Below are positions 6,096-45,300 of a DNA stretch of 64,000 bases, piece after piece. The notes beneath the pieces are model-generated. The model was not told the DNA's origin. It saw only the letters and a list, made by a program, of their open reading frames with translations, and ran no database searches. Made by a program: the position numbers and the translations under genes. Positions within the stretch are counted from its first letter, which is position 1, and every line of letters begins with the position of its first letter. This stretch comes from Liolophura sinensis (Eukaryota > Mollusca > Polyplacophora > Chitonida > Chitonidae): positions 32,532,402 to 32,596,401 of the forward strand of contig NC_088301.1 in NCBI RefSeq assembly GCF_032854445.1, in the 5' to 3' direction.

Positions 6096-7194
6096 GGGTA
6101 TAGCTTGTGTGGAAGACTTTCACTCTCAAGATGACGAAGGCCTCGACGGAGAGAAACAAGCCTGTAAAGATATCATGTAGCGAATTATAGCCGCTTGTAT
6201 ATACCAGTCTGCCTGGGTAACGATTTTGTTAGCTTCAGCGTCAAAGGAATTCAGACATTTCTGTGTTTTTGTTCTGAATACTTAGAGTAATGCAGAACAG
6301 TTTGATGAATTATATCCATATAGATTAGCTCGCATGTCACGGTGACCTCATTTATATATTTTCGCTTATCGGGTTTATCATAGTCTGGTAAACTATTAAT
6401 TATCCCAGGGATGTGATCAATAAAAGAGGCAAACCACAGTAATTATATACATTTTGTTTGGATATGAATTGAGGTCTAACCATGCAATATACGTTGAGCC
6501 ATTTTCGCTGTATCTATAAACATTTTATTCGAGGACTTAGCCTAACTGCGAACGAGCAGAATTAATCGCTCAAGGACAAATGTAATTTAATTAGAACAGG
6601 TCTGAGTACATAATGAGCTTGTGTCCCTGTATATACAGCCACATTATATGTACACAAACCTAATGTCTCCTCGTCGTCATATGATTGAAAATTGTCTTTA
6701 CACTAGAGAAGCTTGATTCCTTTGATCGCTGCATCACATGGTATACACATTTCCTTTATGACCGAGTCACTCATTTTTCTCGATTCTAAGGGCTCTGCTG
6801 TTCTTATAAATATCTTTTGAGGTTTGTCTCAAGGTAGAGGCTGATATCGTACCTGGAAAATGTAGGTTTTCAGCATCAAAAAGATAATTTGTGACCTTTA
6901 TTTTCCTCCAAAAATGCACTATCGGGGAATTTTAAATCTTTCATGGAGACGGTACATTATACGAAGACATGAAGAAAAACTGCGAAGAAAAAATTGTGCA
7001 AAAAATGTGGAGTAAATGTCTAGCGGTTTTCTTAAATTTAGGTGTATTCTCAATTCCATTCTGGTTTTCAAAGAGTCGTTATGCCTGTACATGTATATAC
7101 CTCGAAGTGAATGATATTTTTCAGTAATAATATATAAAGTACTCATACCTTTATTACTAAAATATTGCTAATTTTAATTTTGCACTCGTGATTT

Positions 7195-7725
7195 AGATCT
7201 GATAAGTGTAAGGAGCCGTAAAAGGGATCTGACGGTTTGCTTTTTTTTAACCGTGCGTTTTTAATTTTTTTCACTTTTACTATTTTTTTTTTGAGCCCCC
7301 CCCCCCCCCCCCGCAAAAAAAGAAAGATTTCCAGAAAATGAGATTGGATTGGAGTTTGTCTTGTTTTTTTAAACAGCTGGAAAAAAACACCCGGAAATAG
7401 ATCTTGGGCCCCGAGATAATAAGCTAATCGGATTACGCTTTGCTTCACGCTTTTGTTGAAACATTCATGTATGTGACACTATAATTGCCTTATTATCTCG
7501 GGGCCCCTGATCTTTTTCTGGAAGTTTTTTTCTTTTTCTTTTTATTTCTTTGTCTGCTTAAAAAACAGAAAAGCTCCAACCCGACCTCTTTTTCTGGGAG
7601 TTTTTTCTTTTTGTTTTGGGGCTACTTAAAAACAAAAACAAAAAAAAACTCCAAAAGTGGGGAAAAAAACGTACAGTTAAAAAAAAAAGAAACCGCCTCG
7701 TCCCTTTTACCACTCAGTACACTGT
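7195..7725. repeat. Large imperfect palindrome (foldback element)
   Basis: The left arm (about 7195-7430) read on the minus strand matches the right arm (about 7485-7725) read on the plus strand. Shared blocks in order are TTATTATCTCGGGGCCC, GATCT near TTTCTGG or TTTCCGG, a TTTAAAAAA run with ACA, CTCCAA-CC, TTTTCTGG, a T-rich run, a TTAAAAAAAA run and TCCCTTTTAC. The spacer is about 55 bp. The left arm holds a run of about 17 C (7297-7313). No coding capacity is seen; it could be a non-autonomous foldback transposon. Confidence 0.6.
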
Positions 7726-8535
7726 TTAAAGAGGCTATACCGGAGATTTTTTTAATAAAAATCGAAAAGAATAAATCTAATAGATCTTTTTTGCCAGTAG
7801 TTTATAATGCCAAGATTATTATCTTTCACTAAATATCGGCCTCCTCTGTGAACATGTTACCGTTCAATATCGGTAATAAAGATGGCCTGCCTGTACCTAC
7901 ACGTAACATTTCGGGATGCGTTTTGAGTTTCTAATTAAAATTTCTAATTGAAATCCATATCAATTGGAAGAAACATATATTGAAAATATAACCCTATAGA
8001 CACTAATAAAAACATCACCATGGTAACCTATGATATTAAACGCGGGGATAAAAACGATATACACCAAGAGGAGGTCCCAGACACCCAACATACAAGAAAT
8101 ATTTTCAAATGTACTTGCTTTTATCCATTTTTAGGAAATTGAAACACCTTGTTTACTTATAATTTTTCCCACCTTTTCATCTCATCTGCATTATTTTTTA
8201 TGTTTTCTTCTCTTTTACACACTTTCTGTCTTAAATGTAAAAACTCTTTTCACCCCTTCCACTATTATATATCTTTATCTTTATCTATATCAGTACGGTA
8301 GCTTATTTGTAACGATCGCACTGGCCATAGGTGTTCATTGTAAGTATCATGCAGTAGCTGACGACAAGTTAGTTTTTCAATTGAAGAAAAACTTGAATGT
8401 GTCGATCTGCCCATGTTTACTAAAATAATTAAATATTATAATATAAAATGTCATAAGAAGAGACTAACGTGAAAAGCTCAAATCACACATATACACGAAC
8501 TGACAGTGTGCATGTATTCTGTAAGACGGATCGGA

Positions 8536-9002
8536 CGATAGAGACCACGTGATCTCCTTAGTAACAAAAACGGCGTGAGTGAAAAAAAACGGTTCTACCA
8601 AATGCCTATTTTTCAATCGCTGTCATCGATCTTGTATCCGTTGTATTTGTATAATTGTCAGATTTCCAGATAGTCTGAGTATTTCTGCAGAGCTTTCGTA
8701 CCGTTATTTTGTACAACTATGCCCTGCTGGTCGCTTGCGAAGTGGCGGCCATTTTGTTTGAGACGTTGAAGGGCGGTCACGTGACTTACAACTTCCGACC
8801 CATCTTACAGAATATATATGCATTTATTACTTTAACCGCAGAGAAACGAAGTCAGAAATGTACCAGTCTACATACTTTCATTTTTGAGAATACGAAACGC
8901 GGCTAGGAATGTGAAGTGACTACGTTCTCACAACCACAACAACAGATGAGCAAGTTACCCTAACAAGACGATATTGTTCTAAAACCAACCAATCTCCAAA
9001 TA
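8536..9002 (+). promoter_or_regulatory. Putative HECTD3 promoter and 5' UTR
   Basis: CACGTG occurs at 8546-8551. An X-box-like pair of half-sites (ATCTCC, AGTAAC) follows at about 8552-8565. A YY1-like GCGGCCATTTTG lies at 8745-8756, and a palindromic GTCACGTGAC (USF/TFE-type E-box, CLEAR-like) at 8776-8785. No TATA box is evident. YY1 plus E-box motifs upstream of a housekeeping-type ATG at 9003 suggest a broad TATA-less promoter; the function is inferred. Confidence 0.45.
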
Positions 9003-12000
9003 ATGAGCGTCCCAAGGGCTCGTAGGCGCTTGGCAAGGATAAGATGTTTACAGGACTGTGCAGATCGATTTCAAGAAAACGAACCTCTTCCGAGGAGTTT
9101 GTGTTTCGTTCCCTCGGAAGTCCACTTCAAATGCCCGAACAATTCTGTCATTCCTTTATATTCCGAACCTAACAAAGCAAAGAACAAAAAGGTTCAGGAA
9201 ATTATATGCGCTGCCGACGCTAAAGTCATTGTGTCAGGAGAAGAGTTTTACAATAACTTTGGAAAATGGGTGAAAGGGAAAAAGGTGAAACTCATATTAC
9301 ATTAATTAAACAACTTAAAATGTACTACCTCGATATTTGACATTTCTGACATTCATTCCGTCAGTAAAGTAAATGTCAGAATGTTCAATAAGGAGAGAGA
9401 TCATTTAGACCGCTGAATTAATATTGCAATAGTTGAATTAAATTAAACGTCGAATGTGATGATTTTTGACGATCAACGAATTGACGGTCACAATCAAAGA
9501 TTATTTGCTTATTTAAAGGGATACAAAATCGTCACTGATTGGTTGGTGCGAGAAATAGGCAAGGACATGCTATGATTAGCCTAATGTTAATTTGTGGCAT
9601 GACACTGCAGATTGACAGCCAGTCAACATTTCTCTATTCTCTAATTACACACAGCCATTATTAATATGCTCCAGTTTCTATTATCTATACCCTGTTCTGA
9701 ATAGACACATAGTTCAAAGAAATTAAAAGTCGATTTGTGGCGATATTTGAAAATCTGATAGTTATCCGGCCATCGACTATCAGATCATCAAATATCACCA
9801 CAATCGACGTTTAACTTCATTGAACTACATCAACACAGTCATATGCTGAAAAGGTCCTGTATGTGTGACAAAACAATGGTAGGCTTACAGGCTATCATCA
9901 CCCTCACTTGCATGAATAATGGGCTTTGCATTAATACTGATCACCCAGTCCTGTACATCAGGGCAAAGTGCCAATCGGAAAATGATGGAGATATGCCTTT
10001 TTCAAATGGGATTAATGGCTTTTCTAATTTTGCTTTTTATCAAACCTGCGGGCTGTATAGAACTTTTGCTAGCGAGACTGATAAATGGGAGATTTCAAAA
10101 TGCCACACACAGTCGATTGTCCATCTAGATGTTTATCCCTATGACTTCCTCAATTAAGTGTATTGTTCATCCTGTCACTCCTCTCCATCATGAAACAGGA
10201 TGGGCAGGACATGGACACATTAGGATTACTACAACAAACAAAACATGATCTTGATGTTCAAATGTGTCTACTTATTATAACCACTCTTAGCCTGAATTTG
10301 TTTTAACTATATGGCATATATGTATAGATTGCGTAGCAGGTTCAGATATCAAGCTTTCTTTTGTACAAGATGCTAAGCTAATCACAACAGTGGGTGCTTT
10401 TTTGCTTATTGCTATGAAATGCAAATAATACAAGCTACACATATAACTGCAGTTAATCTGTCAAAAGTTTCTCTCTTGGGTAAGCTGCTGTCATATCTTG
10501 CAGAAAGTCCCAATATACCATGTGTTTGTATGACTTATTTCTCAGTTGAATGAATTCTTGGGCAGATTGTATTTTGACCTGCATGTCTCGTTTGTTTCAG
10601 TATCAACACAAAAAGACTGGAGAGTTTATCAGTCTTCCTGAGGATTCCTGGATACTGCTGATCAGTCCAGGGAAATCCCCTGGGGAATCCCCTCTTTTAG
10701 TGCCTGCACATGATAGCTCTTCCACCACCTTGACGAAAGCTGATGGAGGGTCACATGGAAAGAAAACTCATTTATCTAGGTGAGATAAAACGATAGTAGT
10801 TTTGAATACTTTTATTTTCTGCTTGATCTTGATTTGGAAATTTTTAGGTACCCCTGTGCCTTGGTACAGTAAGATGTTGATGGTTCTTGTGGGGCCATAA
10901 AGATATTAGTACAGCCTGTGTTCATTGAAACCACTTGTCTTTCACCAGATGTAAGCATTGCATTATTTGACCAGTTGAAGACTGTCTATAAGTGCTATGA
11001 CATAACTGAAACCTGTATTTTAAAGTATAGTCTGTGGCCTGTCTTTTAGCTTTAATTCACTGGATCACATGGCTAAAGTGTTGATCTTAGTGCAGACAAT
11101 CAACTGCTGAAAATGAAATTCAGCTGTAGCTGGTGGTGTACTTCAAGCACTCTGGTTTTCTCCACCTGTAAACCTGACTGTCATCGCATATGTGAAAAAT
11201 TCTTGAGGGCAGTGAATTAGCACTAGTCAAATAAATAAAAAACAGAACTGTCTTTAAGACTCTCGACTTTCACTTTCAGTTTTGAAGAGGTGGTAGAGTA
11301 CAACTATTCCCTGAAGCTGAGTAACAAAGCCGATTTGATTCAGGAAGATGTGGAAGCTGTGAACAGATTATGTCAGGTGCCAGTCAACTGGAGCTTAGAG
11401 AATGATGAAGCACTTGTCAAACTGCTCTGTGATCAAATGCCTCCAGATAATGAACAGCTTGGCAGCATTAAGAACTATGTGGATTCCATTGACGTGTCCT
11501 CCTTTGTAAGTTTGTGAGGCTAGTTTGTAAGCAGTCATATTTTCAATTTTGTAACTATGGTAAATGACTTAAAATTTCACTGCTAATTTAAAAGGGAAAG
11601 AGTTTTGTTTACTGAGACAGGTGCTTTAAGGTTTGTTTCGAAGATAGGGAGAAAATTTTTAATCCAAAATTTGTCATTTTTCAAGTGATTTTTTGTTTGT
11701 TTCTGATTGATTCATCTATCTTGCAGAGTTACTATAAAGTTGTTTGTGCAGTTTGATAAATTTCTTATCAGAAAAACTTCATGTGTTGGTATCAAAAGTA
11801 TATTTCACATGCATATCTGAAAGTGCATTTTTACATACAAAACTTTAGGTGAAATACAGTGAATTAAATTTTTATAAAATTTGGCTGTCCGAAAATTGCC
11901 TTTTTTATTTCTTAAAATCATACCTATAGGGCTTTTTGCACTTTTGGGCTTGTGTTTCAGGACGAAGACGGCCCTCAGAATTTGACAGACGGAGATCCTG

Positions 12001-15000
12001 AAACCTACTGGGAGAGTGATGGTAGTCAGGGCCAACACTGGATCAAGCTCCACATGAAGAAGGGGGTTATAATCAAGTAGGTGCTTGGTATCTGACAGTG
12101 AGTGAATGATTGTGATTCTTAACGTAAGGTTCAAATAAGTGTATCTTTTGCCAACGTGTAAGTATGATTTAGACAGAGGATTCTAACTATTATACATCAA
12201 AAGGTATGGAAGCCATATTGAAAAACACTATCTGTTGAAGGGCCATTATTGGATAGAGAAAAAATTGCATTTGTATGTTCTCTTTCATTACTGACCCACA
12301 TTGGGCAGATTAAAATCTTCAAATTTAAGGACTGTAAGGCTCAGGAAGATCAGTTTATTCACATAATTAATTTGTTTGCAGAAAGCTTTGCCTGACTGTG
12401 GACACCGCTGATGATAATTACCTTCCTGTGATGATGTCAGTGATGGGTGGGGAGCCTGACACCATGAAACTCCTCAACACCATCAATCAGGACTGGTGAG
12501 TACTGCCCCTCGCACCCATGTCTTACCTCTTATTACAGTCCGGAGTATGGCTTTTGGTTTCAGTTCAGCTCAGACTCTGACTTGGTTAACAAAGGTCATA
12601 AAACAACTTTACTCTCTCTTTTGTTTTAGGTTACATAATTAGCACATGTTTTCATTTCAAGATGGAGAACTACGGAGACTACATGTACTATTATAAGTCA
12701 TCATTCTGCTTTTTAGTATTGTGCAGTAATTTTTTATGTTAACTCTGTAAGTTAAAATTCTGTGCAAAAGAAAAAGAAAAAAAAATTATCTTACATTGAT
12801 AGGTTTCTCATGTTGTGTCATTTTGAAGCTTATATTCCTCAGATTCTCAGAAAATATTAAGGAAGCATGGTCTCAACAGATTTCATTTTAGCTGCACACA
12901 TATTTACTCACTTCATTTTTTTCAGACTTTTTTTAGGAAAAATTAAGGAAAACAAAAGGATTTATCAGGTTTGCAGGGCTTCATACACATCAATTTTAGA
13001 TCTCAGTATTTGGTAGTAAAATTCAGTTATAAACTGAATATTTGCATTAAAAAAAAATCGAGTCTGTGTATTTCTGGTGCAAATACTCAAATTTTGGATG
13101 AAAACTGAATTGCTTTCGAAACTAAGCGCTTAGAGATAAGCAGTCGACTTGCCAGCGGGTGCATGCATGACAAACAGAAGTGGTCATGTGTGTATTAGCT
13201 GTAATTAAATTAAAATTAGGCGTTAAATGTATTCAAACTATGGTGATACGGCTAAGTGGGTATAAAACAATGTGGGAGTTCGTTCGTATTTAGTTTGATC
13301 AATCTCCGGTATGTGGGGAAAGTGAAAGAAAAGTAGGTACAACACATGCTGGTTTCCCATGAGTGTCGCTTTGATACACGCAGTCCTGTTGGCCTGTATA
13401 TCTCCTGTGGACCACTGACCGTTTGACAGCCATACGTAATGCGTAATAGCGGTTTCTGACTGGCTACTGAGGATGATTAAAACCGAAAACTATCCAAAAC
13501 TAAACATGTTGCTTGGTTGTGTTGATCAGTCATGAATGACGGGCTCCGATAATGGTGAATTTACGTTTCATATTCAACTGCTTATAAGGTGACAGGTCAC
13601 TTTGACAGTTGATTAAAAGTACTCACTCGACAGTTAAAGGCTGATTCAAAAAAGTTACACCTCTTTGAATACTGCTCATACTGGCACGAATGTGGTTTTC
13701 TTACAGTGATAATCCATGCCCCATTGTTTTAATCTCTGATCCAGATTACAAGGATTAGTGACACCTCAAGAAACAAAAGAGGATTATAGCCACCTTAGAT
13801 AATACCTGTGTGACATGCTTGCGTAAATTTTGCCATATTATAACTGGGAAAGTTAAACAGTTTTAAGATTTTTTTTCAGTATTCCCTTGATTAATTACTC
13901 GAAAATTAATTCCTGCCAACCCATTTTTGAAGTAAATGTGCAAAAATAAAAATACTTTGCCGTTAATAGCTCAGATCAGAATAATTCTTGTCTTTTGTGT
14001 TTGTAGGCCTATATAGGTTTATTTTTTATGTAATATTTTTTAGTTCCTTTTTTCTTCTAATATTTGTAATAACCAACAACTGAACATGCATGGTTTATTT
14101 CACTGTATGCCTCTTAGCAGGATAAGCCTTATCTTGCCTTATCTTACACATGTTTATTTTTGATATGATGTTTGTTAGTTCCTGTCTTTCCTTTAATATA
14201 ACAACCAGCAACTGAACATGCATCACCATGGTGTATAACTGTTTTATTATATACAATGTATATCTCTGATCAGGATAATATACTTGTAAAAGTAGGTGTA
14301 TGTACCAATAATAAAATCATGATCAAAATGAACCTCAAATGAAATTAAACTTCCTCTCTCTCATATGTATATACATACTGGTATATCATATATACTTTCA
14401 CATTCACAAAATTACCGGTTGCTAAAGGGGAATTAAACTCAATAGTCAGCGTTTAGAATACAAATAAACTCAATCTGGACCAGAAAAAATCTCAGTTTGA
14501 ATTTCCCATTCTAATTTGGACTTGTATGAGTCCCTGGGTTTGAGAGGTTCCAAGAATGTCTCTGGTGCTCACAATATTTGTGAATGTGATCCATTCCTCA
14601 AATGTGTCTGTATTGGAATATTGCAGTAATGTCTCTGATACCCGTGATATTGGTTAATGTAATTTGTGCCTCAGATTGGTCTGCCATGTGTTGTGGGAAC
14701 ATCTCTGACACACATGATATTGGTTAATGCAATTTGTGCCTCAGATTGGTCTGTCATATGTTGTGGGAACATCTCTGACACACATGATATTGGTTAATGC
14801 AATTTGTGCCTCAGATTGGTCTGCCATGTGTTGTGGGAACATCTCTGACACACATGACATTGGTTAATGCAATTTGTGCCTCAGATTGGTCTGTCGTATG
14901 TTGTGGGAACATCTCTGACACAGATGATATTGGTTAATGCAATTTGTGCCTCAGATTGGTCTGTCGTATGTTGTGGGAACATCTCTGACACACATGATAT

Positions 15001-18000
15001 TGGTTAATGCAATTTTTGCCTCAGATTGGTCTGCCATGTGTTGTGGGAACATGTCTGACACACATGACATTGGTTAATGCAATTTGTGCCTCAGATTGGT
15101 CTGTCGTATGTTGTGGGAACATCTCTGACACAGATGATATTGGTTAATGCAATTTGTGCCTCAGATTGGTCTGTCGTATGTTGTAGGAATGTCTCTGATA
15201 CACATGATATTTGTGTTCTGGAGAACCTGACAGAGCATTACCCCATTATCATGATCAAGATACAGGAGTGCAAAGGTAGGTCCTTTCACACACGTTTCGC
15301 AATGTATGTGTAATGGCTCAAAAGTAAAATACATACAATGTATGGCAAGCACTATGTTTTCGCAGTTTGTTCTCACAAAGGTGAACTATGAAATTGGCTG
15401 GGCGTGGTATACTGGAATTGGCTTGTTTATTCATGTGTAAAGACGAATTTGCCCTTGAATTGCTGGGAGATGAAAGATATTTTCAACATCAGTATTCTAG
15501 ATTACTGGCAAACTTTTTTTCCCAGCAGTTTTAAAAAGCCCTTCATCAGTTCATAAGCGCATAAATTCTTCATTATGTTGTGAATAACAGACCACTGAGT
15601 TGCATAAAAGCTCAAACAGTCATATCTGCCATTAGCAGTCAAAGGTGAAACAGCAGCAACAAGATGTACCTAGTTCAACTTATTACATTTGAATTACTGC
15701 AGCTATGGGGGTGGGCATCTACAGTATAGCAGTTTTTTACAATCATTATTCCCTGCGGATTGCTTGTGACGTTGTGTTTTTTGCTCTGTGTGGGTGTTTT
15801 TGCAGCAGGTGGTATTGACACAAGAATCCATGGTATAACAATCAAGTCAACGGAAGAAAGGGTACTTGGTTTCAGCACTGAACTTTTCACAAAGGACAGT
15901 CTTGTGCGCTACCCTAAACTGGAGCCTTATTCCCCTGAAGTTCTGTTTAGAAGGGCGCTGTTATTACACAGGTATGTACAGCAGACACACCCGTTGAGTG
16001 ACCAAGTTATGGGAAGCCAAATGCCTGGGACACATTTTTATTTTTGCACAATGTTATATTGGTTTCATGTGTAACTGAAAGAAAGCAAAAAGAAAAAAAA
16101 AAAATATGGTCATAAGTGGATAGACCACTGAAAACTAAGTATCTCCAAAACTGCCTATGTTAATTGACCTGAATTTCATCCTTGACCAAGTCGCTCTCTG
16201 CGCTTGATTTTGAGCGTCCATTGATCTAGAAAGGTGTTTTGATGTTTGTTTGGGAGATGGATGTAATGATATCATACTAGAAAATGTAAGTTTCCAACAC
16301 CAAAATTGATAGTTTATGACATTTATTTGCCTCAGAATCATGTAAAGTGAGTAACGTTGTCTTGGATGAAATACTAGTTCAAATACACTAATTGCAGAGA
16401 AATAAAGCAGTTGTCTTTATGTTGATGTTTACTTTTTTATGTTTTTATTTTTTTTTCTTTCTTCACTTTGTCTCATTACCTTGTTCAAGGTTTGATCTGT
16501 GAAACAAATAGATACAAGAGTCATCTATTTCCATACATGTATATGGTAATACCCTGTCACATAGATTTTCTTGTACAGCTGAGTTCAGTGTCCGCAAGGC
16601 ATATCTCCTGGCAGAGTATCCCTTTCTGTTATACAGCATTTCATGGATATTTTCTTTCTACCTCTGGAGATACACTATTTTGAAAGATATAAATAGAAAT
16701 CAACAGTAAAAATTGTAGGCAAATATTGAGTTTTATGGTCACATAACATCTTCACCCAATAGCAAGCTTGGACAATTTTCAACAAAAAAGTCCTCAAGAA
16801 CAAGTTGAACATGCCAAGGCTGTGTGCCGCTGCAGTTTAAATTTGAGCTTAGTCGCACGAGTCATTGAACAATAAAAAGGTATCACTAATTTCACATATT
16901 TTTATAGAACAGTTTTTATTGTCTTTCAATTTAAGATTTGTCACCATTTTGGACAGTGTGTTACCATACATAGTTCCGGCCTGGGAGTATTCAGTTGGTT
17001 CTTATGATGCCCTTGAGGTAACACATATAATCCTCAAATATTTTCTTATACATAGTACATTTAGTGTTAAATGGGATCCTGATGAGAATGGCTTCCAATT
17101 CTGATGTTGTAAGCTGATTAAATTTGGTGACAGGAGAATCGTTTTCAAACACAGCATTAAAGAACAAGCAAGTAAATACAATTTTTCAAAGAATGAAATA
17201 GTAATTATATGACTATGTATATTCCCTGCTATCACTGTAGAAGCCTTAATAGCAGAGAGCATCAAACACAGGATTGCCGTCTTACTTTTGTTGCTTATAT
17301 CTTGTCTTCCTCCAGTATGGCATGGAAGTCTGTGGAAGTCTCATGTGGGAAAGTTCGTCATTAACTGCCTGAAGGCTTTTCGGTTTCCTCCACCAATAAA
17401 ACTGACTGCCATCATAAAGTGAAAAACTCTTGAGTATGTCATTAGACAACAGTCTTTGTTTTCTGTGTAATCCCATAGTTATTTTTTCAGGCTCTTCGTC
17501 AGCTCCTGCCGTTGTCCAAAAAGAGGCTGTCGTTGATTGATACCTTCTTGAGGGATTCCTCACTTGGGTAAGCAGCACTTTTACGCATTGGAACAGGACC
17601 ACTTAATGGTTAAAGCATCCACCTTAAAGTCTGGAGTGGCCCAGTTGGTTAGCGCGCTAGCACAGCGTAATGACCCAGGAGTCTCTCACCAGTGCAGTGG
17701 CTGTGTGTTCAAGTCCATGCTGGCTTTTTCTCCGGCTGTACGTGGGAAGGTCTGTCAGCAGCATGCGGATGGTCATGGGTTTCCCCAGGGCTCTGCCCGG
17801 TTTCCTCCCACCATAATGCTGGCCGCCGTTGTATAAGTGAAATATTCTTGAGTACAGCATAAAACACCAATCAAATAAATAAATCAAATAAATTGGAGAC
17901 CCAAGATCAAACTTAATTCATGTCATACCAAAAACCTTAGAATTGGCACAAAGCTAGGCAGCACTGAGGTTAGAGCAATTAAACAGCATTGATTGGCCTG

Positions 18001-21000
18001 GAGTCAGTATAATGTAACTGGGTGGTATCATGTCTAGTGTCTTTGGCATGAGAAATTTTTGTTTGTTTCTCAATAAGCCTTCTATTTTATTCATATTCCT
18101 CGTCAGTTGTTGGGAACATTCTGAAATGATGTGATCAATAAACATTGAAAGCAGGACCAACTTAGCGCCAACAATTCTGGCTGTTTCAACAGCTATCACT
18201 ATTCACATTACCGCATCAGGTTACTTATTTTCTGGACTGACTACTGGAGCCTAAGGAAAAGTCTAGCTTAAAGCCTTTTTTTTTACACTCAGAGAAGCTT
18301 TTTTGGACTTTTATATGTTAGGCCAAATCCTAAACTCCATATTAAGAAATGAAAAGCAAGCATTCAATTTATCCTGTAAGCTCCAATCAAATGAATAAGT
18401 AAAGTAATTAATGTATCCTTTATTTAAAACATTTTCCTCGTGTTTGCTCTCGTCAGTCAACCCTCAGACATTCCCAAGCTGTACATAAATCGCCGTGAAG
18501 CAATGGAGCACAGATGTGATCCATCCCAGGACCCGGAATATAAACACTCCATCTTCACCCAGATGTACGAGGGATTGAAACCACGAGATCGCTTTACCAA
18601 GCCACTGGACTACAGGTAAAACTTTGCCTATATTGAAGGTTTTCATTGCACAGGCTAATAAGGTACAGTTCCCCTCCATCATGCGTCTCAAAAACATCTG
18701 TGCCTATGTTAAAAGTTTTCAAGGCCCTGACTAATAGGGTACAGTTCCCCTTCATCATGCATCTCAGAAACATCTGTGCCTATGTTAAAAGTTTTCATGG
18801 CACAGACTAATAAGGTACAGTTCCCCTCCATCATGCGTCTCAGAAACATCTGTGCCTATGTTGAAAGTTTTCATGGCACAGACTAATAAGGTACAGTTCC
18901 CCTCCATCATGTCTCTCAGAAACATCTGTGCCTATGTTGAAAGTTTTCATGGCACAGACTTATAAGGTACAGTTCCCCTCCATCATGTCTCTCAGAAACA
19001 TCTGTTCCTATATTGAAAGTTTTCATGGCACAGACTAATAAGGTACAGTTCCCCTCCATCATGTCTCTCAGAAACATCTGTGCCTATGTTGAAAGTTTTC
19101 ATGGCACAGACTAATAAGGTACAGTTCCCCTCCATCATGTCTCTCAGAAACATCTGTTCCTATATTGAAAGTTTTCAAGGCCCTGACTAATAAGGTACAG
19201 TTCCCCTCCATCATGCGTCTCAGAAACATCTGTGCCTATGTTGAAAGTTTTCAAGGCCCTGACTAATAAGGTACAGTTCCCCTTCATCATGCATCTCAGA
19301 AACATCTGTGCCTATATTGAAAGTTTTCATGGCACAGACTAAAAAGGTAGGCCTACAGTTCCCTTCCATCATGTGTCTCAGAAACATCTGTTCCTGTATT
19401 GAAAGTTTTCATGGCACAGACTAATAAGGTACAGTTCCCCTCCATCATGTCTTTCAGAAACATCTGTTCTTATATTGAAAGTTTTCATGGCACAGAATAT
19501 TAGGTACAGTTCCCCTCCATCATCTGTCTCAGAAACATCTGTGCCTATATTAAAAGTTTTCTTGGCACAGACTAATAAGGTATAGTTACCCCCCCCCCCC
19601 CCATCATCTGTCTGAGAAACATCTGTGCCTGTGTTAAGAGTTTTCATGGTACAAAATAAGAATGACGTTTACAATCCTAAGCAAATACATATAACAAAGA
19701 AGAAAAACGTGATTGAATTTAATACCAGAATAGCCATAGATTATGTGGGTGAGTGCTGATGGATTAGAGGTCTTCTAATTTTCTAATTGCTTGGACACAG
19801 AAAATGTTTGTTCAACCCCTGCTATGGAGAGGAAAGTTTTAAGATTGCCTTTCCTTCATTGTTCTGGAGGCCTTGAAGGTACATGTAGTAAGTGATTCAC
19901 AACACGATCATTTGTGTGGTCTTACATGAGGTCCTGAATATCACTTGGCTTCTGCATACACAATGAGCGCACTTAAGGTGAAAATGTGTAATTTGCATAT
20001 TGGAATATTGGTCAGTGATTTTCCATGTCACTGACTGCTGACATAAAGGTAAAATATTCTTGCATCTGTCATTATATACCAGTCAGTCAATCAATCAATT
20101 TTGACTATTTCAGGTGGCCAAGTCGTTACGACCAGTGGTGGGAGTGTAAGTTTTTATCAGAAGGTATCATCGATCAGGGTGGAGGATTTCGTGACAGCTT
20201 GTCTGATCTGTCAGAAGAACTGTGCCCTAGTAGCATGGACACACCCGTACCCCTTCCCTTTTTCATCCGTTCTCCAAACCAGGTGACTTGCCTCAACTTA
20301 AACACTGGTTAAGTGGTCCAAAATTGTTTCAGAATAAATAAAAACTGGAAAAGCATTTATCAACTTTCTTTTTCAAAATACTCATCAAGTTTTAACTCGG
20401 CCTGCGGCCTTATCCTCAAACAGAGGGCATGTCTGTTTTTCTGGCATTTATCTTTTAACCATTTTTGAATAAATCTGCTTGATACATTAGTATTATTGCA
20501 TTGTCAGAAATGAAAAACATAAAATTGCAAGGAAATGGAAAAAAAATATATAACCACGCATGCACATATACTGAATAATTAAAGCAGTTTTATTATGTGG
20601 TTTAACATGAAGTTAAAAAAAGGGGTAAAGGTTGTGATGTTTTCTGATAGTTATCTTGTTTTCCATTTAAAATTACATGAAGTCCAATGAAGATTCAAAT
20701 GTGAACAAAGATGTGTATATACCAAACCCAAGCTGTAAGGAATTTCAGAAATATGAGTGGATCGGACAGCTGATGGGAGCGTGTCTAAGGGGAAAGGAAA
20801 ATCTGGTGAGTATACATGTCAATAAACATCAGTAGAAATGCTCTATGTGGGCATTCTGAATCTTTTCTCCACAAAGCTGTCTCAGGCTTTAGCATTAAGT
20901 TGTATTCCAAGTTAAACTCATAAATGTATACATCAAATCAGTAAAATTTGGAGCGCTGGGTTCTGTGCTAGAAGTCTGCTAGTGGTGTTTTTGTGGCCAG

Positions 21001-24000
21001 CCACTAGTCTGCCAATGGCTTGTCTGTAGACAGCCACTAGTCAGTCAGTTGTTTGTGTGTCCAGCCTTCAGCCAGCCAGTGATTTGTCTGTGGCGAGGCA
21101 CTAGTCTGCTGATGGTGTGTGTGTGACCAGCCACTAGTCTGCCAGTGATTTTTCTGTAGACAGTCTATGGTGTGCCAGTTGTTTGTGGCGAGCAACCAAT
21201 TAGCCAAGAGTTTGTCTTAGGCCAGCCACTAGTCAGCCAGTTGTTTGTCTGTGTGGCCAGCCACTGGTCTGCCAGTGGTTTTTCTGTGGCCAGCCACTAA
21301 TCTGCCAGTGGTTTTTCTGGGGCCAGCAACTAGTCAGCCAGTGGTTTGTCCTTGGCCAGCCACTAGTCAGCCAGTGGTTTGTCCTTGGCCAGCCACTAGT
21401 CAGCCAGTGGTTTGTCCTTGGCCAACCACTAGTCAGCCAGTGGTTTGTCTGTGGCCACTAGTCTGTAATGATTTATAGTTAATCACAGCCTGGTATCTGG
21501 CTGATTAGCCATTTTGTGGAGCAGATGTAATCACACTTTCTTGAACAATTAGTGGTGATCTAAGGTTTTACCATAACTCTCATTTCAGGAAATGCCTCAG
21601 TTGTAGAGATGTATTTAGGGTACATACTCAGATCAACAAAACTTCTCTTTGTTACAGATTCTATCTCTACCATCCTTTGTGTGGAAGAAATTGTCTGGGG
21701 AAAAAACTAATTGGCAGAGGGATTTCTTCACCGTGGATGCAGCAGAGGTGAGCTGTTCACAGAGAAATGATATTGTGTAAGGGGTGCATATGGTTAGGAC
21801 TGGTGTCTTTCAATGGCTAAAACACAGGTTCAATCCCAGCCTTAGATGTTGGTGGGACCATGGTGAAATTAAGTTGACGATGCTCGTGTGGCTGTTTGTG
21901 CAGTCTAGCATTCATTGAAGACCATTTGACTTTCACCAGTGTATTGTGCATGTATGTATGTCACAGTTTGTCAGTAGCTTGGGAAAGGTCAATGGTTTAC
22001 CTCGGTTTGCTCTACCAATAAATTGGATAGCCATTGTACAAGTGAAAAAATCTTCAGTATAGTGTTATACAAAATGTCAAATGAATAAAATAAATGAATA
22101 TCATGGAATAGTGGGACAGATTTGTAGTCTTTCGCATTTTCAAAAAAAATCAACCGCAAGTAAGTTTTCATGATACCAGCACAAAGATCCCTAGTTGTAA
22201 GATATATGAAAGTTGAATTGCCAATTTTAAGTCTTATTCTCAAGCAGACAGAATACAGAGCATTGCACAAAGAAATAAAGACGTTAAATCCCAAGCACTC
22301 TCACTCAAACAAATAAAGAGGGGCTGTGTAGTATATCCTGGGGGCCTCCGTGGCTCAGTTGGTTAGCACGCTAGCGCAGTGCAATGACCCAGAAGTCTCT
22401 CACCAAAGCCTCTCTCTCTCATTGTTTCTCATTGGCATTTAACATACTGTAAATCTTCGACCTTTTCAACCTCTAAAGCACCTTTTTCAGTGGAATTTAT
22501 GCATAGTTATTATGATAATGATGCTAGATTGATTTGTTTGTGTCACTAAAGAATTAAGATACAAGCTTCATAAAAAGGTGCACCTTATTTCTCTCCACTC
22601 CATAGCTCTTTGAAAATGTTTCAAAATATTGGTTGCGGAAGCAATGGACAAGGTTGAAGAATTAGGGTAAATGACATTCTTTAATTTTATGCTTTGGTAC
22701 CTTTTCAGGTAAAACTCATTGACATTTTGGAGAGCATGGAAGAGAGTGAGTTTAATGTAAAGATAGCTGGGAAGAGGACTTGGTCAACTTTCTTGAGTGA
22801 TGGCACTGTTATACAATTAAAGATCAGTGCTGATGGTACTTCCCCAGAGCTTTCATACACCGACAGGGGAGACTACTGTCAGGCAGTGAAGAAAATACGC
22901 ATGGCTGAATCAGACTTACAGGTAAACACCAACTAGGACATGTTTGTTAGGGTTAGGGTGAATAACCTAAAATTTCACCCAAGAAAAGTGCATTTATGAA
23001 GAAATTTAAATGCCATAAAAAATATTACTTGTGATGCTTAAGCTTACATTTTCAATTCGCCTTACCAAGAAAGGAGAGGTATTGTGAGGGCCATAGGAGG
23101 ATCAGATGCTGTCAGTGGTATTGGCAATGTCCAGCTTGGTTAAAGTTTTTGGCCAATCATTGGGTTGCAGTGGCCACTCAAAGTACACAGATAGCCAGTT
23201 ATCGATAGCGATTTGCATATCAAAGACTGGTGCCTCAGTGGCTCAATTGGTTAGCACGCTAGTGCAGCATAATGACCCAGGGGCCTCTTATCAATGCAGT
23301 CGCTGTGAGTTCAAGTCCTGCTCATGCCGACTTCCTCTCCAGCATTACGTGGGAAGGTCTGGCAGCAACCTGCAGATGGTCAAGGGTTTCCCCCAGCTGT
23401 GCCCTGTTTCCTCCCACCATAATGATGGCTGTCGTCATAAAGGTGAAATATTCTTGAGTACGGCATAAAAAAACAATCAAATAAATATCAGAGACTAATG
23501 AAGTCTTACCTCATAGCTCAATATTTTGTTCAGCTATTCACAGTGTTCCCATAGTACATTGACTCTCAGATGCAGTTCGCAATTGCACATCAGAGACCTT
23601 TGGGGTAAATTTGTGCACCAATTCCCCCACAGTGTCTTTTACCACCACAATGATTTACAACTCTACAACTTATGATGTCGCTGCTCTGCAATCCTTACAC
23701 ATAGGATAAACAGTCATAGTTGTGACAGTATAATAATTTTGGTCTTTCTTGTTGATTAAACGTTAGGATCTTAGCACTGTATAATTAGATGATAATATAT
23801 TGATGTGATAATCAATCAATCACAGCAGTGTCAATCATTCAACTTTTTGGGGGGTTAAGAGGTCAGTATTTGAATGTATCCCTTGACTTGAACATTATGC
23901 AATTTTACAAACTGCTCAGTCAGGTGAGCTACGGGTATTCTCTGAATACTTTGTTCCACTAGCTTCCAAACAAACTACCTTCCAAACGAACTACCTTCCA

Positions 24001-28069: not shown

Positions 28070-31000
28070 CTTATAATTATATAATAATACATATAATTTT
28101 TATCCCATGGGACATAATTTTGTTACCTTTTTTTGATACCATGGTAATGAAATTACCCCTTTTGAGAATACCCAATCTAAACTTGATAAAAATACTTATG
28201 TAGAGGACTTAACAACAAGATGTTGCCTCTGTGTATCATATTTTCTATTCTGCTGAAGTTTATTATCCTTCTGAGACTGTGGAACAGTTTGATGTAAAAT
28301 CATTCACTCCAAAACCAGTGAGTCCCAAGTCCTAAAAGTTTATATATGCATACCCTTCTAAAATAAATGTGAAACAGTCTCAGGTGTAAACTTCATTTAC
28401 CCATCTAATACCTTTGAAATGCCCCAAGTCTGAAGAAGTTTATATACCCTTTAGAACCAATGTAAAAGAGAGCCTTGTCTTGCAAAATTAGTTTACCCTT
28501 CTAAAAACTGCATGAAATGCCAGAGATCTGGAGAAGTTTATATACCCTTTTGAAAAAATGTGAAACAGTCCTAAGTCTGATAAAGTCTTCACATTTCCAG
28601 ATCCAGTGAGGAAATTCAGAAATATTATACCCTTATGACCATGAAAGTACGGTAAAAGTTTTAGTAAAATGGACATGATTAAGGGCAATATTCAGTGTAT
28701 GTAAATTAAAACTACTTTCATTTACTCAGCATTTAAAGTTAAAAATTTAGAGTTAAGGTATGTTGTATCTTTGGTCCCCTCAAACTAAATGGTAAACAGA
28801 CTAGTATAAAGAAAGTGATGTGATTCCTTTGGGAACTGATATCTGGATATCTGGATACCAGACTCACAACCATATGAGTTAGACTCACAGCCCTGATAAC
28901 ACAGATGGCGCATGTGTATAATGCTGTAGACAGAAACACATAGTTTTACCTTTGGTTAGATTCTGCTCATTTGCGTCGCTTTCGCCAGAACACCATAAAA
29001 AATATAAAAAATATCACCCCTACGTCGACAAACATGAGTAAGATGGCAAACATCCACACATTGTTCGTCTGCACTTCAGGACTTTGTGTAACTTCCAGGC
29101 CCACAGGAAACTTGCCCAGGGGAATGGATTGGTCTTTTGACTGCATAATCGTCCTCCATAGGGAGCGCATCATTGAGGCTTCCTTCCCAGCAAAGTGATA
29201 GTCCAGTATTCCTATCATGATTGGGCCGTGAGCGTACGAAGGGTGTAAATATGTTGCCATCACAGAATCCTTGGTGGAAATGCCCACATATGCCTCAAAC
29301 GTATCCTTGAATTTCAAACCCAATTTTTCCACAAGGACACCTGTCCAGGCATCATCAGGCATAAAAGAAGGTGTGTCAAGGGACATTAGGTAGAGTTTAG
29401 TGATGATGTCAGATGACACAACATAAGCTGTTCCTGAACAATAGGCAGGATACGCTGAACCGGGGTACTTTTTAACAGACACGGCGTATTTAGAACGACC
29501 GTGGATGGCCCTGGTGCAGCATGGGAATAGATAACACAGTGTGAAGTGATCCTTAGTGGTCTCCAAGGATATCTCAGAGAGCAAGTACTGGACAAGTTTG
29601 TGGGTGTCGACTATAATAGAGTCATCGCCTACCATGACAAAACTGGCATGAGGACAGTAGGTTTTGGCCCATTTCCATGCCATGACAGTTTTCAGGGTCA
29701 AGTTTGAGTAGGACTCTTCAAAGTCTTCCTGAATAATATCATCGAAAATTTGGCTCTCTCTGGTAAGTGCCCTTTGGATCTGTGTGTCTGCTGGCTGGGC
29801 GAAAAGAAAGACAAATTTGACGGTGAGATTCTTGAAGTTCTCTTGCATGGCCCAGGTCTCCCTCATGGCCATGCGGCGGTCATAGTGAGAGAAGATTGAG
29901 CGGATCATGACCAGCAGTAACACCTCTTTGTGGTCCAGGCACAGAGTAGGCTGGTTGATGATGTAACTGTAGTTATGAGGGTTACAGTTATGGGGAGCCG
30001 TGTAGAACTGGAGAGGGACAGCTGACTCCTGGGGTCTTGGTATAGCGGGGATATGCTTGTCCTTACCATCACTTAGTCTCTTTGTCTTCTCCTCATCCAG
30101 TTCCTGAAAACCATCTTCCTCCACTTCTTCTCCAGCTCTCCTGGCTTGGCCTGGCCAGGCCAAAAAAAGGGACACATTACTTTTAAGCTTACAAAATGCA
30201 AGAGGATTTAGTTTACAGGTTTGGGTCACCTTATTTTAGCACAGAAACATTGATGGGTATCCTTTTTTGTCACAATACTGTTCAAATCCAGCACTTGTTT
30301 GCACATAAATAGTTATACACAAAAAATACATATACTGTACCAAGAAAAGCCACTCTTTTGAGATGATGTATGTTTCTAATGTCAACACTGGAATATTGAG
30401 TTTATGTATATTTTAACTGAATTCCTGTAATACATTCGTTTTCATGATGTATACATATACATCTTTTATAAAGATTTTAATCAAAGGTTATGAAGAACGA
30501 CTTGTCCTCATATAAACAAATGCTGCTTGATCTGTAAGATATATGTAGTTAATTACTGCACAACAATTCATGCTTTTGGGTGGAAGAAAGCGGAGTTGTA
30601 TTGGTGGAAGCCATGAATAAACTTTGTGTATGATGACACAAGAAAATGCTCTTTAACACTTATTGCCACTAAGGCCCTGAAAAAGATGTCTCGGAATAGG
30701 ACTGAACTCACATGCCGGCTGACCTATTGATTGAATGGCATATTACAGTTCCATATTTTACATAACAATGTTCATATTTACCTTCATGGTTAAGTCCAAC
30801 CACAGCACAAACGAATAGCAGTTTACCAAACCAACCCAGCATTATAGCACACATCCACATTCCAGAATCAGTACATGACCACTCATTGTACAGAAGAGTT
30901 TAGACCATGAAGATGTAAGTACTGTAACTTTCTGTAGAAAACCAGAACAAAAAAGCAACAATGTGTCATATGCAAAATTCTGCTGTGAAGCAAACTATAT

Positions 31001-42376: not shown

Positions 42377-45300
42377 TCACTGGCCATTCCACTTTTGAAG
42401 TTTCCCCTTGGCAAATACCAAGTTTTGTGTGGGGTAGGGGATGACTTCAGAGAGGTCTTCAGATAGAGATTTGTCTACTGAGGGCTCAGCTTGACCCGGA
42501 ACATCCTGTTAGTGATGAAGAAAGAAGAGATAATTAAGGCATGAATATTCTGCTGAATCATTTCCTGACTCCCTCGCACTTTAACAGGTGTCTGACACAC
42601 CTCCTAACTCCCAGGACAGGTGGAATCTAGATTCAAACACATCACCTCATCATTAAACATTTCCTGACTCCCTCGCACTTTAACAGCTGTCTGACACACC
42701 TCCTAACTCCCAGAACAGGTGGAATCTAGATTCAAACACATCACCTCATCATTAAACATTTCCTGACTCCCTCGCACTTTAACAGCTGTCTGACACACCT
42801 CCTAACTCCCAGGACAGGTGGAATCTGGATTCAAACACATCACCTCATCATCAAACATTTCCTGACTCCCTCGCACTTTACCAGGTGTCTGACACACCTC
42901 CTAACTCCCAGAGCAGGTGGAATCTGGATTCAAACACATCACCTCATCATTAAACATTTCCTGACTCCCTCGCACTTTAACAGGTGTCTGACACACCTCC
43001 TAACTCCCAGAGCAGGTGGAATCTGGATTCAAACACATCACCTCATCATCAAACATTTCCTGACTCCCCGCACTTTAACAGGTGTCTGACACACCTCCTA
43101 ACTCCCAGAACAGGTGGAATCTAGATTCAAACACATCACCTCATCATCAAACATTTCCTGACTCCCTCGCACTTTACCAGCTGTCTGACACACCTCCTAA
43201 CTCCCAGAACAGGTGGAATCTAGATTCAAACACATCACCTCATCATTAAACATTTCCTGACTCCCTCGCACTTTAACAGGTGTCTGACACACCTCCTAAC
43301 TCCCAGGACAGGTGGAATCTAGATTCAAACACATCACCTCATCATTAAACATTTCCTGACTCCCTCGCACTTTAACAGCTGTCTGACACACCTCCTAACT
43401 CCCAGGACAGGTGGAATCTGGATTCAAACACATCACCTCATCATCAAACATTTCCTGACTCCCTCGCACTTTAACAGGTGTCTGACACACCTCTTAACTC
43501 CCAGAACAGGTGGAATCTAGATTCAAAACACATCACCTCATCATTAAACATTTCCTGACTCCCTCGCACTTTAACAGGTGTCTGACACACCTCCTAACTC
43601 CCAGGACAGGTGGAATCTGGATTCAAACACATCACCTCATCATCAAACATTTCCTGACTCCCTCGCACTTTAACAGCTGTCTGACACACCTCCTAACTCC
43701 CAGGACAGGTGGAATCTAGATTCAAACACATCACCTCATCATCAAACATTTCCTGACTCCCTCGCACTTTACCAGCTGTCTGACACACCTCCTAACTCCC
43801 AGAACAGGTGGAATCTAGATTCAAACACATCACCTCATCATCAAACATTTCCTGACTCCCTCGCACTTTACCAGCTGTCTGACACACCTCCTAACTCCCA
43901 GGACAGGTGGAATCTGGATTCAAACACATCACCTCATCATCAAACATTTCCTGACTCCCTCGCACTTTAACAGGTGTCTGACACACCTCCTAACTCCCAG
44001 GACAGGTGGAATCTGGATTCAAACACATCACCTCATCATTAAACATTTCCTGACTCCCTCGCACTTTACCAGCTGTCTGACACACCTCCTAACTCCCAGG
44101 ACAGGTGGAATCTGGATTCAAACACATCACCTCATCATCAAACATTTCCTGACTCCCTCGCACTTTAACAGGTGTCTGACACACCTCCTAACTCCCAGAA
44201 CAGGTGGAATCTGGATTCAAACACATCACCTCATCATTAAACATTTCCTGACTCCCTCGCACTTTAACAGGTGTCTGACACACCTCCTAACTCCCAGAAC
44301 AGGTGGAATCTGGATTCAAACACATCACCTCATCATCAAACATTTCCTGACTCCCTCGCACTTTAACAGCTGTCTGACACACCTCCTAACTCCCAGAACA
44401 GGTGGAATCTAGATTCAAACACATCACCTCATCATCAAACATTTCCTGACTCCCCCGCACTTTAACAGGTGTCTGACACACCTCCTAACTCCCAGAACAG
44501 GTGGAATCTAGATTCAAACACATCACCTCATCATCAAACATTTCCTGACTCCCTCGCACTTTAACAGCTGTCTGACACACCTCCTAACTCCCAGAACAGG
44601 TGGAATCTGGATTCAAACACATCACCTCATCATCAAACATTTCCTGACTCCCTCACACTTTAACAGGTGTCTGACACACCTCCTAACTCCCAGAGCAGGT
44701 GGAATCTGGATTCAAACACATCACCTCATCATCAAACATTTCCTGACTCCCCCGCACTTTAACAGGTGTCTGACACACCTCCTAACTCCCAGAACAGGTG
44801 GAATCTAGATTCAAACACATCACCTCATCATCAAACATTTCCTGACTCCCTCGCACTTTACCAGCTGTCTGACACACCTCCTAACTCCCAGAACAGGTGG
44901 AATCTAGATTCAAACACATCACCTCATCATTAAACATTTCCTGACTCCCTCGCACTTTACCAGCTGTCTGACACACCTCCTAACTCCCAGAACAGGTGGA
45001 ATCTAGATTCAAACACATCACCTCATCATCAAACATTTCCTGACTCCCTCACACTTTACCAGCTGTCTGACACACCTCCTAACTCCCAGGACAGGTGGAA
45101 TCTAGATTCAAACACATCACCTCATCATCAAACATTTCCTGACTCCCTCGCACTTTACCACCTGTCTGACACACCTCCTAACTCCCAGGACAGGTGGAAT
45201 CTAGATTCAAACACATCACCTCATCATTAAACATTTCCTGACTCCCTCGCACTTTAACACATGTTTAATCAAGAAGATAATGGGACAAGAGGAGAAAACT

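Follow-up and report, generated by a model that had tools for sequence, protein, structure and literature searches.

In amphioxus, minisatellites known as "mirages" have been described in which the repeat unit spans an exon edge, at either end of an intron; many of the copies, though not all, keep the AG or GT of the splice site, and the inner units of an array evolve together while the border units are left out (PMC3087553; PMC3902484). Haplotype data are included in the portions of these papers drawn on here, together with reverse transcription PCR (RT-PCR) results taken by the authors to suggest regular splicing (PMC3087553). Normal mRNA despite the extra copies, and an array length that is unstable between haplotypes or somatic cells, also count among the marks of a mirage. 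Judged by analogy, the mirage is the closest known system to a 70-bp array found at exon 6 of HECTD3 in a 64,000-nt window of the chiton Liolophura sinensis (contig NC_088301.1). From the sequence, this element is most probably an acceptor-type exon-edge minisatellite, that is, a set of tandem copies of the end of intron 5 together with the start of exon 6. Coordinates are positions in the window unless a locus is named, and genome searches covered a single assembly of 609 Mb. One contig of this assembly has eight consecutive matches to the molluscan haemocyanin domain (PF14830), as expected of a mollusc.

Structure of the array at exon 6

The gene model and the parts of the array were placed as follows.

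9003-22921 (+): HECTD3 coding exons 1-14 as modelled, with phase-consistent joins; the model stops at 22921
12382-12495 (+): exon 5, donor CTG/gtgagt
15184-15186 (+): exon 6 acceptor TAG (G at 15186), matrix score 7.3
15187-15275 (+): exon 6, phase-consistent model; its peptide of 29 residues matches human HECTD3
14554-15211 (+): 70-bp minisatellite over the exon 6 acceptor (acceptor-type exon-edge array), from Tandem Repeats Finder (TRF) and a register table
15187-15214 (+): repeat-homologous part of exon 6 (about 25-28 nt), codons NVSDTHDI, from unit comparison
14697-15141 (+): exon-like halves, core unit 7 to core unit 1, all seven with GG at the position of the acceptor AG
14627-14651 (+): exon-like half of unit 8, AG kept (14625-14626), exon-type at +4, +5 and +13
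14554-14578 (+): exon-like half of the outermost and most diverged unit, 20/25 identical, AA in register

In-phase joining of exons 1-14 gave a 695-aa open frame that matched human HECTD3 in the PDB (9r85) at E 6.4e-205, which bears out the gene name used in the initial annotation. The leading base G of exon 6 completes a codon, TG/G, begun in exon 5. Intron gain by tandem duplication was considered for exon 6 and rejected: intron 5 is one intron (12496-15186), exon 6 is in phase with exon 5, and no protein segment is duplicated. Splice matrices were initially trained on HECTD3 itself; for the scoring of exon 6 and its decoys an acceptor matrix built on 98 other introns was used, and the true acceptor fell at the 21st percentile among those 98 acceptors. 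At the next exon, exon 7, the acceptor (15800-15812) is a CAGCAG (NAGNAG) site, the upstream choice giving a gap-free alignment to the human protein.

The array was called by TRF at 14632-15211 (period 70, 8.3 copies, 93% matches). In the register table, which takes 15187 as the first exon base and sets unit starts at 70-bp intervals upstream, the exon-like halves of core units 1-7 start from 14697 to 15117. The array ends 25 nt inside exon 6, with scattered identity on to about +28, and the first 25 nt of the exon are identical to the nine upstream copies at 20-22/25 positions, ungapped. A tandem repeat thus spans the exon-intron boundary, and the real exon edge is one of its units. When the assembly was searched with the array DNA, the only match was at the array's own place, and no second haplotype was seen.

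These results agree with the initial annotation on several points: a 70-bp recurrence that reaches into exon 6, about 25 nt of repeat at the exon start (controls for such matches, described below, gave 1/990 and 0/594) and GG at the acceptor position in seven copies. That annotation also described the copy at 14625-14626 as the outermost one and as still having AG. The AG is present, but a more diverged copy starts at 14554, in which an AG lies one base past the register position.

History of the array

The exon unit differs from the core consensus at -11, -2, +4, +5 and +13. Four of its states (-2 A, +4 T, +5 G, +13 T) are shared with unit 8 and absent from all seven core units, and the intronic half of unit 8 is diverged (31/45 positions differ). 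The most parsimonious reading is that ancestral states are kept in the exon and in unit 8, and that the seven core units descend from one ancestor in which four changes, including AG to GG, had arisen. All seven GGs go together with three further changes found throughout the core, and so are better counted as one inherited change than as seven. As in mirages, the inner units evolve in concert and the border units are left out. Growth of the array out of the intron-exon junction, one of two origins put forward in the initial annotation, is favoured by the four exon states common to the outer unit 8 and missing from the core.

A later step can be read from a higher-order pattern. At a shift of 210 bp, 307/314 positions matched, units 5-4-3 and 2-1-0 forming a three-unit pattern that includes one long exact match.

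15054-15184 (+): 131-nt exact identity with the sequence 210 bp upstream, ending at the base just before the AG

Exact runs at the other shifts tried were at most 65 nt. The last visible growth step, on these matches, is a three-unit (210-bp) duplication. Modelled as a copy of units of the 6-5-4 type into units 3-2-1, it left 3 mismatches, and 2 if the first copied unit started as the exon-unit intronic half and switched to unit 6 at -10 or -5.

The other origin, in which the array was born in the intron and then homogenised the exon edge, is unlikely. The intronic half of the exon unit is identical at 44/45 positions to core units 1, 3 and 4, and the repeat-derived codons align poorly with the human protein and carry two extra residues, both of which could be traces of overwriting. 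At the three diagnostic positions that lie in the exon (+4, +5 and +13), however, the exon has a state of its own, which unit 8 shares and the core lacks. The 44/45 identity to unit 3 is accounted for by the 210-bp duplication, so homogenisation of the exon is not needed, and this part of the initial annotation is set aside.

Survey of exon edges in other introns

Introns were called from neighbouring matches to HECT, myosin-head and kinesin models together with phase and splice scores. Fifty-nine of 62 HECT matches were used (two in the window's own HECTD3 and one unfetched locus were excluded), 43 of 81 myosin matches, picked by eye as neighbouring groups, and 53 neighbouring kinesin pairs less two whose introns measured 7.9 and 8.6 kb. 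Introns with unsure splice sites were dropped (1/26 HECT; 13/74 myosin and kinesin). The sample was 25 HECT, 61 myosin or kinesin and 13 HECTD3 introns, or 99 introns with 198 edges. An edge was scored as copied if the first or last 25 exon nt recurred at 18/25 or better inside its own intron.

Edge copies were found at 10/198 edges (6/99 acceptor, 4/99 donor), against 1/990 for shuffled edges and 0/594 for foreign introns. With the index intron removed the count was 9/196, and with all HECTD3 introns removed 9/172. Two of the ten were weak single copies (L038, 19/25; L054, 18/25), neither keeping its AG or GT (0/2). Outside HECTD3 there were seven strong edges, at L005, L010, L015 (both ends), L024, L033 and L034, the single extra copy at L033 being a plain duplication.

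Across these seven edges 43/49 copies keep the AG or GT in register and 48/49 within 2 nt; copies in one array share descent, and the figures count copies rather than independent events. For acceptors the in-register count was 15/20 (L005 3/8, L010 2/2, L015 8/8, L034 2/2) and for donors 28/29 (L015 11/11, L024 16/17, L033 1/1), rising within 2 nt to 19/20 and 29/29 (L005 7/8, L024 17/17). Four of the five out-of-register copies at L005 have AG one base on, and the odd donor at L024 has GT two bases earlier. Keeping is thus near-complete within 2 nt, so the copies just out of register reflect one-base indels or shifts; family-wide loss of the sites is confined to HECTD3, where AG is in register in 1/9 upstream copies and within 2 nt in 2/9. 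On these counts HECTD3 appears atypical among the edge arrays of this genome in having lost its in-register decoy AGs.

At L015 (oriented -), the intron at 6992-8841 of that locus has edge arrays at both ends with all extra GT and AG sites intact. The 11 extra donors are mostly 72-79 bp apart and score 3.1-3.5 (true donor 3.1); the 8 extra acceptors are mostly 83 bp apart, seven scoring 14.4, equal to the true site, and the eighth 13.6. The exact sites of this intron are less sure than most because the best splice pair scored 17.5 and the runner-up 16.0. At L024 (oriented -), a 31-bp donor-type array of 17 copies fills most of the intron (735-1367 of that locus).

Among the myosin loci, neighbouring exons at L021 (G000 C1:26642195-26642299 and C1:26643291-26643386) match positions 118-152 and 121-152 of the myosin head model; covering nearly the same part of the model, they look like alternative exons.

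Density and placement of arrays

TRF at a period of at least 20 found 32 arrays in the 99 introns, covering 21,442/83,248 intron bases (26%). Edges crossed by at least 10 nt of an array numbered 10 (one, at L061, marginal at 10 nt), against a mean of 12.8 in a simple simulation in which the centre of each array was drawn uniformly within its own intron (P(sim<=obs) 0.16, P(sim>=obs) 0.92). On these crossings, exon edges are taken neither as a hot spot for arrays nor as clearly avoided by them in this sample. In a genome so rich in minisatellites, exon-edge arrays need no special cause.

A further array in HECTD3 was considered as an edge-crossing case.

18622-19592 (+): second HECTD3 array, 76 bp x 12.7 (TRF), after exon 10 (end 18615)

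It starts at intron position +7 by alignment or +10 by TRF. No homology across the donor was detectable, 960/1000 shuffles scoring as high, and the array was not counted. The longest array of the window, at 42559-45259, has 27 copies of 99 bp with 97% matches.

Competing acceptors upstream of exon 6

Acceptor scoring, proposed as a check in the initial annotation, brought out a set of sites that had been overlooked.

14669-15164 (+): eight CCTCAG decoy acceptors (G at 14674, 14744, 14814, 14884, 14954, 15024, 15094 and 15164)

Their scores (6.0 at six sites, 6.4 and 7.5) nearly equal the 7.3 of the true site; the AG of unit 8 scored 3.1. Exon 5 joined to any of the eight CCTCAG sites meets an immediate stop, TG/A (codon 1). 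With entries read at the register position, and not at AGs displaced by a base, units 1-8 stop at codon 11 and unit 9 at codon 26, the split junction codon being counted; the early stop that had been expected for entry at unit 8 (14627) is among these. By score, HECTD3 holds competing acceptors whose products would be truncated and would presumably be cleared by nonsense-mediated decay.

The initial annotation suggested that decoys had been purged, that is, that selection had stripped the acceptor AG from each intronic unit and so blocked early entry by the spliceosome. The upstream copies lack AG in 8/9 cases in register and in 7/9 within 2 nt, as a purge would leave them, yet we consider it quite unlikely: the GG is one linked, inherited change of the core family, and eight CCTCAG sites of similar strength persist beside it. 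Elsewhere, L015 retains 8/8 acceptors (13.6-14.4) and 11/11 donors, most other edges keep their sites too (the 43/49 given above), and L005, with AG within 2 nt in 7/8 copies, gives a purge no support. Loss of the core AG was probably a hitch-hiking mutation. The earlier interpretation, growth from the junction combined with purging or homogenisation, is thus supported in part.

That the array is kept because it serves a function, such as controlling whether exon 6 is included or supplying an alternative exon, is highly unlikely: nothing direct favours it beyond the many acceptor-like places that the array provides, all nine in-register and eight CCTCAG entries stop early (codon 1, 11 or 26), and the sampled array positions agree with random placement. 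Chance resemblance or an assembly artefact, which a single assembly with no reads and no second haplotype seen might suggest, is barely credible in view of the control counts and of the ordered substitutions between units and three-unit higher-order pattern, hardly expected of invented copies.

Origin and consequences of exon-edge arrays

The exon-edge minisatellite at HECTD3 probably grew by unequal exchange or slippage that was blind to the exon edge. Tandem growth would push copies of the edge into the intron while the exon retained one full copy, and the array would be tolerated because the extra copies are all intronic and the innermost acceptor, beside the complete exon with its donor downstream, is the one chosen, as under exon definition. 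The protein would be unchanged provided that the innermost acceptor (or donor) is chosen. Because extra copies can equal the true site in score, position must decide, and definition from both sides of the exon is probably the simplest reason. The NVSDTHDI stretch, with its poor human alignment and two extra residues, would make this edge tolerant of change. A few per cent of the sampled exon edges would be caught in arrays through the genome-wide richness in minisatellites.

Several points weigh against this account. The direction of change is argued by parsimony within one array of one species, and the breakpoint of the 210-bp step, tried in 5-nt steps, is weakly placed (2 mismatches at -10 and -5; 3 at 0, at -15 and further upstream), a difference of one mismatch being weak. 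The human alignment places a 2-residue insertion within the repeat-derived codons, and the edge of exon 6 may itself have been reshaped at the birth of the array. That the innermost acceptor is used is predicted from the reading phase, the splice scores and the homology of the protein. At L005, entry at six of the eight in-register places would meet no stop within the stretch read, and use of the first extra donor at L015 would add 26 in-frame codons, likewise free of stops. A rule by which a decoy persists only if using it leads to an early stop was tried, and none is claimed: L010, L034, L024 and L033 fit it, L015 fits apart from its first extra donor, and neither HECTD3 nor L005 conforms. 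The stop-free entries of L005 and L015 mean that decoys are not restricted to harmless places, nor losses to dangerous ones.

More broadly, exon-edge minisatellites may be a standing feature of gene structure in this mollusc, affecting a few per cent of edges and often with identical, full-strength sites; we hold this tentatively, at not far short of even chances. If it is true, splice choice at array edges would be set by nearness to the full exon and not by signal strength, and the genome would offer natural assays of tandem splice sites in their thousands, as well as a steady supply of slipped exon starts and growing introns. The L015 intron, with eight extra near-equal acceptors and eleven donors, would allow exon definition to be asked about directly. 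In minisatellite-rich genomes, the exon starts given by gene predictors or short reads may be wrong.

Other features of the window

A 422-codon open frame at 28967-30235 (-) matched Pfam Galactosyl_T at E 4.8e-40. Dispersed repeats at about 17635-17895, 22340-22410 and 23230-23300 begin GTGGCTCAGTTGGTTAGC or similar; these GTGGCTCAGTTGGTTAGC-type repeats we take to resemble tRNA-derived short interspersed nuclear elements.

Comparison with known systems

In the literature searched, no report of a mirage or exon-edge minisatellite in a mollusc was found; a paper on Lucina globin had no bearing on the matter. The published mirages that we found concern a few amphioxus genes, and the 9/196 edges seen here (7 strong) suggest that such arrays occur wherever minisatellites are dense. 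Repeats in PGBD5 have also been likened to mirages in the portion of the literature drawn on.

An ordinary intronic minisatellite resembles the HECTD3 array in its period, homogenised core, diverged edge and three-unit higher-order block, but in the HECTD3 array the last unit is coding sequence and contains the working acceptor. Intron gain by tandem duplication, as described for the potato RNA-dependent RNA polymerase (RdRp) gene in the part of that account used here (PMC4974935), likewise involves a duplication that carries intron-exon borders and splice signals; in HECTD3, by contrast, there is no new intron, exon order is the same and the copies lie inside one intron.

Amphioxus mirages, as far as the portions cited describe them, differ in host (a cephalochordate, against a mollusc) and in their RT-PCR and haplotype data, the chiton arrays being described here from sequence; HECTD3 also departs from them in being nearly without in-register AGs. 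The two share their anatomy and the exclusion of border units; many splice signals are kept at the seven other strong edges of this genome, and at HECTD3 AG is in register in 1/9 copies (2/9 within 2 nt), beside eight CCTCAG sites. The exon-edge mirage would thus now be present in another phylum and is apparently common in this mollusc; that commonness, and the loss of in-register AGs at HECTD3 by one inherited change, may be new.

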